DNA from: Chrysaora quinquecirrha
Lineage: Eukaryota; Cnidaria; Scyphozoa; Semaeostomeae; Pelagiidae
Assembly: GCA_014526335.1 (NCBI GenBank)
Contig: JACTAT010000030.1
Location: forward strand, 1,313,741-1,377,740
Direction: 5' to 3'
Length of the DNA stretch: 64,000 bases
Shown here: piece after piece, positions 36,201 to 57,200 of the stretch
How the letters are laid out: each line of letters opens with the position of its first letter
How positions within the stretch are numbered: the stretch's first letter is position 1
Position numbers and translations under genes: made by a program
The notes under the pieces: model-generated
Database searches by the model: none
What the model was told of the DNA's origin: nothing
What the model saw: the letters and a program-made list of their open reading frames with translations, nothing else

Positions 36201-39200
36201 AATTCGAACAGAAATATCTGATTCAGTCCATATTCTGAAATCAAATAAAATGTACTTATAAATGGCCTGAAGAAGGTCCATTTTACTTCCAGCTAAGCCT
36301 TCAACAAGAGATTGAAGTGACATAAGAAATCCAACATTAATGATTCTTGCATCACATTTCTGCAGCAACAATCCCATTAGTTGAACGCCTTTCGATTGAA
36401 GAAAGAGATCCTGAGCTCTTCTCTGATTTACAAGCATATTTCTTAACAGAGAAATGAAATAGGATGCTCCATTTAAATCATAATAATCTTTTTCTTTTGC
36501 CCATTTCGTAAAAGTTAGATTTCTTGCTCTGGAAGATGTTTTATCTACCAAGACCCAATCTTCAGATTCCTGATCTGGTCGTCGGGAATTTACGGGTGAT
36601 TGCCTGAAAAACGAAACAAGGAATCAAGTACCAAAGAAATCAAAAGGTTTTATCACAACTGACACTTTTAACGGAGAGCACAGTTGCTTAGAAAATAATA
36701 TTGCTCAGAGCACTCTATGCGAATAACAATGTGACTTTCAACAGCTAAACGGCAAAAACTCTCATTTTAGTAGGATGCAAGCGCCTGGCTAGACTTCACC
36801 GGTCTCAGCCCAGTGACGTCATCAGTGACGTCATCAGGTCGCGCTATAGTGCAATGGTTTTTATGGATGTTGATTTCTCATACCACATCATCAGTGACGT
36901 CATTAGATCGCGCTATAGTACGGCGGGTTTTACAGAAACCGCAGATGTTAAATGGTAACAGAGGTTTAATAATTCAATTCAATTTACAGGGTAACACAAT
37001 TCTAAATAAATTCTCTCAATAATTCAATTCTGAACAAATTCTCATATAATTCTATAGAACTTTAAATTTAATTACTCAAGATTCACAAGAGTTTAAGTTT
37101 GTCTCATTCTTATTAACAATCTAACCATTTCAACTATATAGTTCGTGTTCTCATCACTCTGAGCCATAAATCCTAGGATTCGATCTATTTCCACACCATG
37201 CCTATTATAAACTCCTTCAATATTATCATCATCAGCTTCTTCATCATCATCATCATCATCAGTTAGAGATTCTCCATCACTTGTTAGAGACTCTTCGGCA
37301 CCAACATCTGCAACTTCGTTGTTACTCTCCACCCTTTCCCTGCTTCTCTGCCACGCTTCCATTTCAGAGAGAATTGCCTGTTGTTCTTCTGAAACTTGTC
37401 CTGACTTAAGAATCCTGCAATCTGATTGGTTAGAACTTTCCAGAACTTTCCAGAAGTTTCCAGAAATCCTACAATCTGATTAATTATGATGGCGTAATAA
37501 TAATTCGAACGCGACGTTCGAATCGTTTATTAAATAAAATAACATAATAATCCTACAATCTGGATAACTAGAACTTTCCAGAATGTTCCTAAAATGACGT
37601 AATAATCCAGAACTTTCCAGAAGTTTCCAGAAAGTTCCACAAGATTCTAGAAACGAGAAATCCTGCAATCTGATTGGTTAATAATTCGAACGCGACTTTC
37701 GATCGATCGATCTATAAAATCGATGCGTAAGACGAAATCAGTTCAGTTAGAAATTAATCATGAAGAGGTCACACGAAGAAGAGAGCTCAGCTGCTAATAA
37801 TAGTAAGCGAAGAAAAATCGCTTGTGATGTATGTGGGAAATTGTTTGACAGAATGTTAAATCTCACATCACATAAGCGAACAGCACATGATATACACCCA
37901 TCAGCAGCAGAACAAAAGAAATTGGTTGGTGAAGGTAAGAACATGAACAAGATGGATAAGAAAGCATTCAGAATATATACCGAAGAAGAAGATATCAAAG
38001 ACTGGGCAAGAATCACACAGCATACTATTCGAGAAATTAAAGAAGAATTGCCAAATCACAAGCAGGGGATAAAGTATTATGTCACTATCGATGCCGAATT
38101 TAAAAAGTATGGTGATACGCTTATCGTTACAGAACCACCACCCACATTCAGAACCACCGTGCAGACGCTTCTATGGTCAGAGTATGACGTTGCTGAAGAT
38201 CAGGTAGTTGAAGCTATCAACACACTGCGAGATAAGATTGATGAATTCTTGGAGAATGGAAGTGGTTGGATATTTACAAAGTTTACCCAACTACAAGTGA
38301 AGATGTTTGATTATGATGCAATTCGTGGTGGAAAGTATTTGCAACTGCCAACATACATCAAAAACAAGAAGGCTGTTCTCAATGTACAGAACAGTGACGA
38401 TAAATGTTTCATCTGGGCAATTCTATCCCGTCTACATCCACAATCACGACACAACCAGAGAGAGCCGCACCGTACCGGCGATACTTAGATGAACTTAACT
38501 GTGAAGGATTGACATATCCAGTAAAAGCATCCGATAAAAAGATGATTGATACATTTGAAATAAACAACAACATTTCAATCAATATCTATATGGATGAAGA
38601 TGGTGAAATTGTACCAGTAAGAATAACTGAAACTAAACGTGAAAAACATGTGCATTTGTTATTAGTATTCAATGACGATGGTGAGAGCCACTATTGCTGG
38701 ATAAAGGACTTGAGTCGTCTTTTAGCAGGTCGAGATGGTCACAAACATAATGGAAAACGTTTTATCTGTCCTCTATGCTTATCCTCGTGTAGAACTCAAG
38801 AAAATTTGGAAAAGCATGAAAAGCTATGTAAGACTCCTCAAGCTGTTGAATATCCTCAAGATACAGAATTAAAGTTTGAACATTTCAAATATCAGAGCTT
38901 GCTACCATTTATCATCTATGCAGATACTGAATCCATTCTGGAAAGCTCAAACAAAAGAGCTGCTTATCAAGAACACAAGCCGATCAGTTATTGCATTTAT
39001 GTCAAATCAATCGATGATAGATGGCAACAGCCGTTGGAATGCTATACTGGTGAAGACTGTATGGAGGTGTTGATGAATCGTCTAGATGAATTGAATGAGG
39101 AAATCCGAGCAGTGTTCAAGAAAACCATGCCGATGATTAGATTAACACCCGAAGAAAATGCAAGACATGATATGGCTACACACTGCTATTGCTGCAAGCA

Positions 39201-54200: not shown

Positions 54201-57200
54201 CTTTCTTATCCATCTTGTTCATGTTCTTACCTTCACCAACCAATTTCTTTTGTTCTGCTGCCGATGGGCGTATATCATGTGCTGATCGCTTATGTGATGC
54301 GAGATTTAACTTTCTGTCAAACAATTTCCCACATACATCGCAAGCGATTTTTCTTCGCTTACTATTATTATTAGCAGCTGAGCTCTCCTCTTCGTGTGAC
54401 CTCTTCATGATTAATTTCTAACTGAACTGATTTCGTCTTACGCTTCGATTTTATAGATTGATCGATCGAACGTGACGTTTGAATTATTAACCAATCGGAT
54501 TGCAGGATTTCTCGTTTCTAGAATCTTGTGGAACTTTCTGGAAAGTTCTGGAAAGTTCTGGAAAGTTCTAGTTATCCAGATTGTAGGATTATTATGTTAT
54601 TTTATTTCATAAACGATTCGAACGTCGCGTTCGAATTATTATTACGCCATCATAATTAATCAATCAGATTGTAGGATTTCTGGAAAGTTCTGGAAAGTTC
54701 TGGAAAGTTCTAACCAATCAGATAAGAGGATTCTTAGGTTCTATAGAATTATATGAGAATTTGTTCAGAATTGAATTATTGAGAGAATTTATTTAGAATT
54801 GTGTTACCCTGTAAATTGAATTGAATTATTAAACCTCTGTTACCATTTAACATCTGCGGTTTCTGTAAAACCCGCCGTACTATAGCGCGATCTAATGACG
54901 TCACTGATGATGTGGTATGAGAAATCAACATCCATAAAAACCATTGCACTATAGCGCGACCTGATGACGTCACTGATGACGTCACTGGGCTGAGACCGGT
55001 GAAGTCTAGCCAGGCGCTTGCATCCTACTCATTTTTATTCTTTTTTCTCAGAAAAGAAATCATGAGTTACATTAAATATCATATGAAAATCGGTTGCATA
55101 GGTCTATTTATACCTGCCGAGAGCTACAGTTATACAATATGATAAAGATGGTTTCTTAGAAACGGCCAGAATCGTAAACAACTCAGTAATAGACCAAGAC
55201 GAAATTTCTTATGAAATAAAATGTGTGACCTAGCAGACACCAGCTTATAAGAAACCCACTTCTCAAAATTACCCTGTTGAGTTTCTTGGCAGTATCCGAT
55301 GCACATATTGGGATAATCTGTCACTGTTTTTGAAGCAATAGAAAAATTCTGTCATTTCTCAAGTCAACCATGTTTCAAGATACGAAAATATGATGTTTTA
55401 AAAGAAACTCGGTGAGTAGTTTCTAATGAGTTGGTCTCTTTTATACGGGTTTTTATCAGCAATGGCGGAAACTTAGGGGCGACAGGATGCGGTTGTACCA
55501 AAAGTCATTGGCTTTTTGCTAGAAAACAATAGAAGAAAACTATGATGATCTACTGAACCAATAGCTTTGCCCCAATAATTGACAAAGTTTCCGCAACTGT
55601 AAATCAGTGTAAACGCACGTACACGTATCATGAAATTCTGCATTCCTCCCTGTATAGAAAGACAAGTCAAGCGAAAGAACTTAAGAAAATCTCAGAGAAA
55701 ATGTTGACATACGGTGTTTCGATGAGCAGAAAACTTCCAGTAGATGGGTGGTGTTGATCTCGGAAATCATTCGGTGAAATTGGCGAAAGACGAGCCTCTT
55801 TTTCATCTGATACTTGACCCGTCGCTGATTTGCTAAGACGAGGCTCTTGTTCATCATTTTTCATTCCGGCGACCTGTTGATCAGTGCCATCATTTTGATT
55901 ACGAACTTCATCGCTTAAGTGGTTGAAGTCCAATGGAGACGTGCTTAATTCTTTGTCAGTTAATTCAGGTTTCAGTGAATCGCTGTTTAAGTGAATATCC
56001 ATTGTTGAAATGTCATCATTGGCTAATACAAATGAGCGATCACGTGATATTTTATTCTCGTTGTCTTCACTATATTTAACTTGCTCAAGTAAAGGAAATA
56101 AGACTTGCAGCCCTCCAATGCATTGAATAGAGCTCTGAAAGGAAGACAGAAATGCAAAAGGTAAAAGACAATAAGTATGGTGAATCCATCGTATGTACTA
56201 CCAACTCAAGCATACCTCAAGTTAGAAAACTTAGTCTTATCATATTTGAGTATCTTGACAACAAAGTGACCCTGTCTTTATCCGTCAACTATACGTTCTA
56301 TAAACATTGTATTGTACCTAATTTTCATAAGTAATTCTTAACATGGTTTTCAAATTTTCCTGATTCCTGGATGGTGGGTAGTCTGCATGGTGGATATCTC
56401 CGTGATGATTTGGATACCTTCGACATTTAAGGCTGAATTAGTTGAGGTCTCTTTGAAAAAATCCAATGATGAGTTTTTCATCTCGGGATGTTTGCAGTTT
56501 TTTTAACTGTCGCAAAGACTTGTTCTAACTGGATACATTGTTCAAAACCTCGTTATTATATCATCCTTACTCCCACGTTCTCTGTCAAAATTTTATCCTG
56601 CAGCTATTCACAAGTTGAAATTTTTTGGAACGCATACTTAGTACAGTCAAGCCTAGCCTAGGTAATAAATTAATACTTTTCCAAACATGGCATGGATTAA
56701 GAATACTCTACTATTTCAAATTTTCACATATAAATGACAAAAAGTTTTTGTAGTCCCAATACAAACTTGTCTCGTATATAAAGAAACGGCTGTTCTGAGA
56801 TTTTATGCGCCGTTGTAAGAGGATGGATTATCATTATGCATATATTAGATTTTCTAAATCAGTTGTTCGTTCAATAATTTCAAGTTATTCCAAAAGGTTG
56901 ATAATTCGAAACTGGGTAATGCTATCACAAGTTCTTTATATTTCAATAGCTTTTGGTATGTAAAGATTAGTATCCGTTTCGTTTGTCTATGCTGGATAAT
57001 ATGTGCTCTATGCCATTGGCAGAGCGATATACACAGAGGTAGACTCAGAAAAAAAATATCTTCGTTGTTACTCCGAGTTTCACGCATTCATGCGATCATC
57101 AGACAACTGATTCTGAACTAATTTCGAAGTGCCGACACGAGAACAAATACTATTTACGCAACTTTAGAACAATTAACACCTCCAAAGAACAGTCATTGTA

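Follow-up and report, generated by a model that had tools for sequence, protein, structure and literature searches.

The window analysed here, a 64-kb stretch of the Chrysaora quinquecirrha genome, contains an 18,261-bp Polinton (positions 36769-55029), a virus-like DNA transposon that lies in a neurobeachin-type gene, next to exons on the opposite strand. The element bears the hallmarks of its class, namely long inverted repeats starting with AG and a 6-bp target-site duplication, and it encodes a protein-primed type DNA polymerase B (PolB; Pfam match PF03175, 4.3e-18 in the right copy), an integrase and a packaging ATPase. Each inverted repeat carries a zinc finger-PolB gene, and a gene for a 326-amino-acid (326-aa) protein of no assigned function lies in the middle. 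The promoters in front of these genes contain long, phased arrays of heat-shock elements (HSEs), the sites of heat-shock factor (HSF). It is these arrays, their spread through the host genome and their possible use by the element that we consider here.

Phased GAA/TTC units were counted by a script, with 100 dinucleotide shuffles of the window as the control. There are six runs of at least four perfect units in the 64 kb, and all are within the Polinton's three promoters; the shuffled windows together gave three 4-unit runs and zero of five or more. GAA/TTC is alone among the 32 complementary trinucleotide pairs in forming runs of more than four units at a 5-bp pitch, and it does so at pitch 5 alone among pitches 3-12. 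For an HSE at least three contiguous alternating nGAAn/nTTCn units are expected, and the arrays have four to eight perfect units in the window and up to 11 elsewhere. The recount placed the arrays within one base of the coordinates given by a first-pass annotation of this DNA. That annotation also put the usual size of an HSE at three to six units, which is a fair summary; however, the HSEs of Drosophila Hsp68 reach up to 11 units (PMC2871787).

The left, internal and right promoters are built alike: an HSE array is followed by an inverted CCAAT box, the TATA box CTATAAAA and the initiator-like motif TCAGTT, whose two copies begin 26 and 31 bp downstream of the CTATAAAA start in all three. A 22-bp module has nine matches beside the arrays, where 0.02 would be expected by chance, and the inverted CCAAT core ATTGG is kept in five of the nine. 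Heat-shock gene promoters have their parts in this order too, with HSEs in phase, then inverted CCAAT, TATA and initiator. The spacing also agrees, in that the left arrays (37432-37653) are about 90-310 bp before the predicted initiators at 37738/37743, and HSEs lie within about 400 bp upstream of the transcription start (PMC2871787). The left and right promoters open the zinc finger-PolB gene and the internal promoter opens the 326-aa gene; we call these genes early by inference from their content. From 43.7 kb inward the genes have no HSE array. Around the ATPase gene and before the integrase gene there are instead four GTTATAAATA boxes (at 43758, 43801, 44474 and 44586; 0.26 expected), possibly a second promoter class.

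Table 1. Features of the Polinton and of its predicted promoters (positions in the window)
Feature	Position	Strand	Details
Target-site duplication CATTTT	left 36763-36768; right 55030-55035		6 bp
Inverted repeats	left 36769-41612; right 50556-55029		~4.8 kb and ~4.5 kb; both start AGTAGGATGC
Acidic 89-aa frame, divergent	37093-37362	-	inside 37061-37403
Left distal HSE array	37432-37466	+	7 perfect units
Left proximal HSE array, first part	37570-37589	+	4 perfect units
Left proximal HSE array	37609-37653	+	6 perfect units (37609-37638), 9 with one mismatch
Inverted CCAAT box CTGATTGGTT, left promoter	37670-37679	+	second at 37422-37431
TATA box CTATAAAA, left promoter	37712-37719	+	
Initiator-like TCAGTT, left promoter	37738-37748	+	two overlapping copies
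Left zinc finger-PolB gene	37760-41582	+	three frames: 37760-38488, 38404-40785, 40782-41582
Internal HSE cluster	42461-42509	+	4 phased units (42461-42480), rest out of phase
Internal promoter	42527-42601	+	CCAAT 42527, TATA 42565, TCAGTT 42591 and 42596
326-aa gene, no assigned function	42650-43630	+	behind internal promoter
A32-type packaging ATPase	43783-44484	+	PF04665 Pox_A32, 1.1e-06
Integrase with chromodomain	44985-45731	+	rve 3e-06 (below rve cut-off), Chromo 6.8e-09
Right zinc finger-PolB gene	50586-54408	-	broken into several frames
Right promoter	54420-54456	-	TATA 54456, TCAGTT 54430 and 54425
Right proximal HSE array	54515-54569	-	8 perfect units (54530-54569), 11 with one mismatch
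Right distal HSE array	54677-54711	-	7 perfect units

The arrays have been carried through the host genome by the element. In the host assembly (328 Mb, 740 contigs), searched with the same pattern read backwards as the control, six perfect units occur at 1084 match positions versus one for the reversed pattern; these are positions rather than arrays, and runs of eight or more units are counted more than once. Among the array matches listed, all 20 of the surrounding stretches carry the promoter module and belong to this Polinton clan, 12 through Polinton protein matches (two of them short remnants only) and eight through the element's terminal sequence. The composite site, a CCAAT box followed directly by four units, has 471 matches in the genome and none in the control. 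A DNA similarity search added 38 further promoter stretches, and six or more perfect units are kept in every one, with 11 in one of them. Because this set was drawn from 40 scored stretches among 695 candidates, which favours well-kept copies, and several of its stretches are the two ends of one element and hence not independent, a second sampling was started from PolB protein matches. From 123 match rows, in which 119 of 458 candidates had been scored, it retained the 32 PolB copies located on contigs C2-C186, for which the listing of composite sites is complete; three rows were second pieces of PolB copies and were dropped from the count. A composite site lies 2.0-2.6 kb upstream in 21 of the 32 (interval searched, 1.7-2.8 kb), with about 0.0016 expected per such interval by chance. 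The site is present in 18 of the 19 copies with at least 95% PolB identity, and a copy at 78% identity has two at the expected distance. What is looked for in a heat-activated transposon, HSEs in its own promoter that travel with it through the genome, is thus found in this element.

The composition of the arrays bears on which factor reads them. At an HSF site a pyrimidine-purine base pair separates TTC from a following GAA, and the pair that separates GAA from a following TTC is free (PMC8379338). In 57 distinct arrays, whose units are not independent where they share descent, 142 of the 155 TTC-to-GAA pairs are pyrimidine-purine, against 20 of the 175 GAA-to-TTC pairs. Since the spacers obey the published rule, the pattern points to HSF over an unknown factor or a plain repeat. 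The interpretation of the first-pass annotation is thus partly supported: the arrays have the make-up of HSF sites and stand in Polinton promoters, while the stress-induced escape is its proposal.

The host has the corresponding machinery. There are six matches to the HSF DNA-binding domain in its genome, two of them nearly full length, and two hsp70 genes without introns face each other head to head (L117:1-2071), separated by a region that holds a CCAAT box and short HSEs. In that region, the one intergenic region compared among 38 hsp70 match rows, no perfect run exceeds three units, and one such run is about 40 bp away from the CCAAT box. The element and the hsp70 pair therefore share both kinds of site, the arrays being longer in the element: perfect runs have three units at the most in this pair, versus 6-11 in the Polinton and eleven in Drosophila Hsp68. 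Like the Polinton promoters, the Drosophila Hsp and host hsp70 promoters have their phased HSEs upstream of TATA.

From this evidence we think it reasonably probable that one Polinton lineage uses the arrays of its early promoters as platforms for host HSF, and that they make early transcription stress-responsive; the design suggests that host stress may wake the element. Several HSF trimers would bind a phased array side by side and, with a CCAAT-binding factor at the NF-Y-type site and TATA, would raise early transcription. HSF would thereby drive zinc finger-PolB in both repeats and, mid-element, the 326-aa gene. This transcription would increase under heat or proteotoxic stress, and infection too can bring such stress about; PolB would then copy the element, and replication would rise. 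The inner genes would use another TATA-type start without HSEs. Candidate triggers are heat, damage to proteins while the host is infected or capsids are being made, and the normal activity of HSF in the germline.

Several observations weigh against a stress-responsive role of this kind or limit it. First, all 14 distant Polinton loci (38-51% PolB identity, in metagenome bins) have no run of even three units, ten of them being estimated to reach at least 150 bp upstream of the predicted start. The first-pass annotation had named a lack of enrichment in related elements as one condition for refutation, and on this point the result favours it, since enrichment is strong among related copies, though missing from distant ones; because the 14 loci have no runs, the arrays are, in the sequences compared, a property of one lineage and not of Polintons at large. 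Second, copies with less than 95% PolB identity have the exact composite site in only three of 13 cases. Third, some short elements with the same ends keep arrays with neither TATA nor a gene behind them. Fourth, the internal cluster that the first-pass annotation had placed at 42462-42509 is an array in its four phased units; beyond the fourth, the loss of single bases throws the units out of phase. The internal promoter of all five other copies read has a longest perfect run of 6, 9, 10, 6 and 6 units, however, so the internal array of the window copy looks decayed. Fifth, the window copy of the Polinton is itself probably inactive, because its zinc finger-PolB gene is broken over several frames in both repeats; other places in the host genome have unbroken PolB frames of at least 1,200 aa. 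Finally, under a low rate of neutral decay the excess of kept units vanishes, a point taken up below.

HSF might also act on these promoters without stress being the point. Its constitutive or developmental activity, for example in the germline, could drive them so that insertions become heritable. We judge this unlikely, although all the evidence for HSF sites fits it equally well, no result here speaks against it or separates it from the stress reading, and the targets of HSF reach beyond the heat-shock response (PMC8379338). Long cooperative arrays generally go with stronger heat-shock responses (PMC2871787).

It is also conceivable that the arrays are end repeats used by a viral or host protein in replication or packaging, and that their HSE pattern is secondary. 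The origins of adenoviruses, for instance, have accessory sites beside them. The arrays do lie within about 0.9 kb of both element ends, and they are kept in short elements without PolB; that some of these lack TATA or a gene as well would be compatible with a replication role of the ends. Nevertheless, the same arrays stand mid-element before the 326-aa gene, with 6-10 perfect units in all five other copies, they hold a strict GAA/TTC phase and follow the HSF spacer rule, and they have TATA and initiator at a fixed distance. We consider this explanation quite improbable.

Alternatively, the arrays could have no function, a 10-bp HSE-like repeat having expanded once in copies that are too young to have decayed. 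The copies are indeed young, most of the PolB matches listed being 90-99% identical. Their upkeep was measured in 25 aligned promoter copies (23 fetched and two from the window), a third copy serving in every comparison to define the array positions. The differing bases amount to 4.4% of comparisons in the unit cores, 9.1% in the non-array promoter and 19.5% in the spacers (4.8%, 8.8% and 20.2% in the 20 copies below 97% identity), although alignments offset by one repeat unit can inflate the value for the spacers and protect that for the cores. Core bases therefore differ half as often as other promoter bases, which argues against neutrality. In a neutral decay model, in which the five richest copies were mutated at random, 4.5% decay, equal to half of the divergence observed in the flanks, brings the mean down to 16.9 units and spares a six-unit run in 84% of copies; the real copies average 21.1 units among the 25 and 19.3 among all 40, and a six-unit run is present in 40 of 40. 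The test leans on the assumed divergence, because 2-3% decay from the ancestor would by itself leave 21.5-19.7 units, as observed. Also at odds with neutrality are the PolB copy at 78% identity, which still has two composite sites at the right distance, and the several distinct arrays per promoter, whose phase is always equal. The proximal block, measurable in 15 of the 40 copies, is 43, 53, 63, 98 or 108 bp long in 13 of them, stepping by 10 bp within each group; two copies, of 79 and 82 bp, do not fit. On balance an absence of function seems very unlikely.

That another host factor such as Rel/NF-kappaB or STAT is the real target is hardly credible: units such as GGAAAGTTCT may resemble a Rel-type decamer, but GAA/TTC are the fixed letters, the head-to-head spacer is free, and a dimer on one 10-bp site needs no 5-bp alternation over 6-11 units.

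If HSF is indeed the factor, the use of the arrays may extend beyond the full-length element. Shorter elements with the same ends are marked out by four pairs of promoter copies in inverted orientation, at distances of 5.8-7.5 kb. In one of these, a non-autonomous element, a 120-aa frame (L079:7640-8002, minus strand) lies behind the right-end HSE promoter and is weakly Bcl-2-like (PF00452, 1.1e-4, 23.1 bits against a cut-off of 31.4); no solved structure was matched by its sequence. We advance only as a tentative proposal that the lineage wired its own early programme, and that of the short dependent elements (one with the Bcl-2-like frame), to HSF and so became the main holder of long HSEs in the host. 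Stress would then launch the element genome-wide and might draw neighbouring host genes into the heat-shock response. Short elements also carry C2H2 zinc-finger frames with an acidic stretch (L079:2097-2600, minus strand, 167 aa; L080:1656-2108, minus strand), which are not in the gene list of the window element, and the left side of the first has degenerate, telomere-like repeats of CCCTAA type (L079:191-720).

The borrowing of HSF by a transposon is already known. The ONSEN/COPIA78 retrotransposons of Brassicaceae have heat-responsive elements in their own regulatory region and are active in heat stress (PMC3907296, PMC5059998). They are in this respect like the Polinton; ONSEN, however, is a plant long terminal repeat retrotransposon whose activation has been demonstrated, whereas the Polinton is a DNA transposon of virus-like kind, known from its sequence, several promoters of which have long arrays in phase. 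Helitrons of Caenorhabditis supply more than half of the host genome's HSEs, in dense clusters, with HSF binding and induction demonstrated; their authors saw no high-density HSE clusters in the other bilaterians that they examined (PMC6927752). The Helitron is likewise an HSE-bearing DNA transposon, but of the rolling-circle type, and binding and induction are demonstrated for it. Among viruses, the reactivation promoters of herpesviruses are under HSF2 (PMC12047821), which resembles the proposed Polinton switch in placing host HSF at viral switch promoters, although in another class of virus and with no mention of long phased arrays in the excerpts available. The other Polinton/Maverick elements, the 14 distant loci, share PolB with its N-terminal extension, the integrase and the ATPase, but differ in having no run of at least three units.

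Among the best-ranked open-licence PMC papers we found no report of HSEs in Polinton promoters, and none of a virus-like DNA transposon of such a design. To our knowledge, the trigger that switches on an integrated Polinton is an open question. If heat does activate the element, the life cycle of a virus-like DNA transposon would be tied to the stress response of its host, and the element would join the Caenorhabditis Helitrons as the second case in animals where a transposon has flooded a genome with HSEs.

The searches for relatives gave some further observations. The 14 distant loci (L019-L032) are Polinton contigs within prokaryote genome bins of a public collection, probably as eukaryotic contamination. 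A partial relative of the 326-aa protein (P0126, 83% identity over 42%) is likewise filed in a Desulfobacterales bin and is probably host DNA. In viral contigs PolB alone had no match to the pattern; an alignment of PolB matched 24 stretches there and one of the 326-aa protein 62, and none was confirmed as a relative. A scan of viral contigs for 6-unit arrays gave 15 stretches, and six loci were sent to protein family searches: the proteins of L006, L009, L011 and L012 matched phage families, those of L003 and L015 matched none, and L001 and L014 share array sequence with L011. With eight of the 15 loci considered, these arrays were read as tandem-repeat background, mostly in phages. The promoter module pattern occurs in three viral contigs without arrays, which was taken as chance. 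A retrotransposon search had its best matches at 63% and lower; of at least 120 matches, those with a name came from fishes, cnidarians and a bacterial bin.

The element has several other features of note. Both frame junctions of the left PolB gene are bridged by a single frame in relatives such as L019. The predicted structure of the 326-aa protein was too poor for a fold search (mean pLDDT, the predicted local distance difference test, 47.7). No candidate frame of the element had a Pfam match to capsid proteins or an adenovirus-type protease; a protease-like stretch at about 50003-50450 was recognised by eye only. A 343-bp stretch of the left repeat (37061-37403) has no counterpart in the right repeat, and the left promoter may be divergent, with the acidic 89-aa frame on its other side. 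Perfect cAMP response element (CRE) palindromes, TGACGTCA, lie near the element ends, three at each (36814-36902 and 54896-54984), and the window contains seven against 0.95 expected. Tandem AACTGTT/TTGTTACAACAGTT repeats occupy the inner ends of both inverted repeats (41582-41666 and 50454-50586). Outside the element, a 22-bp satellite extends over 25571-27315 of the window, its main array having about 64 copies.

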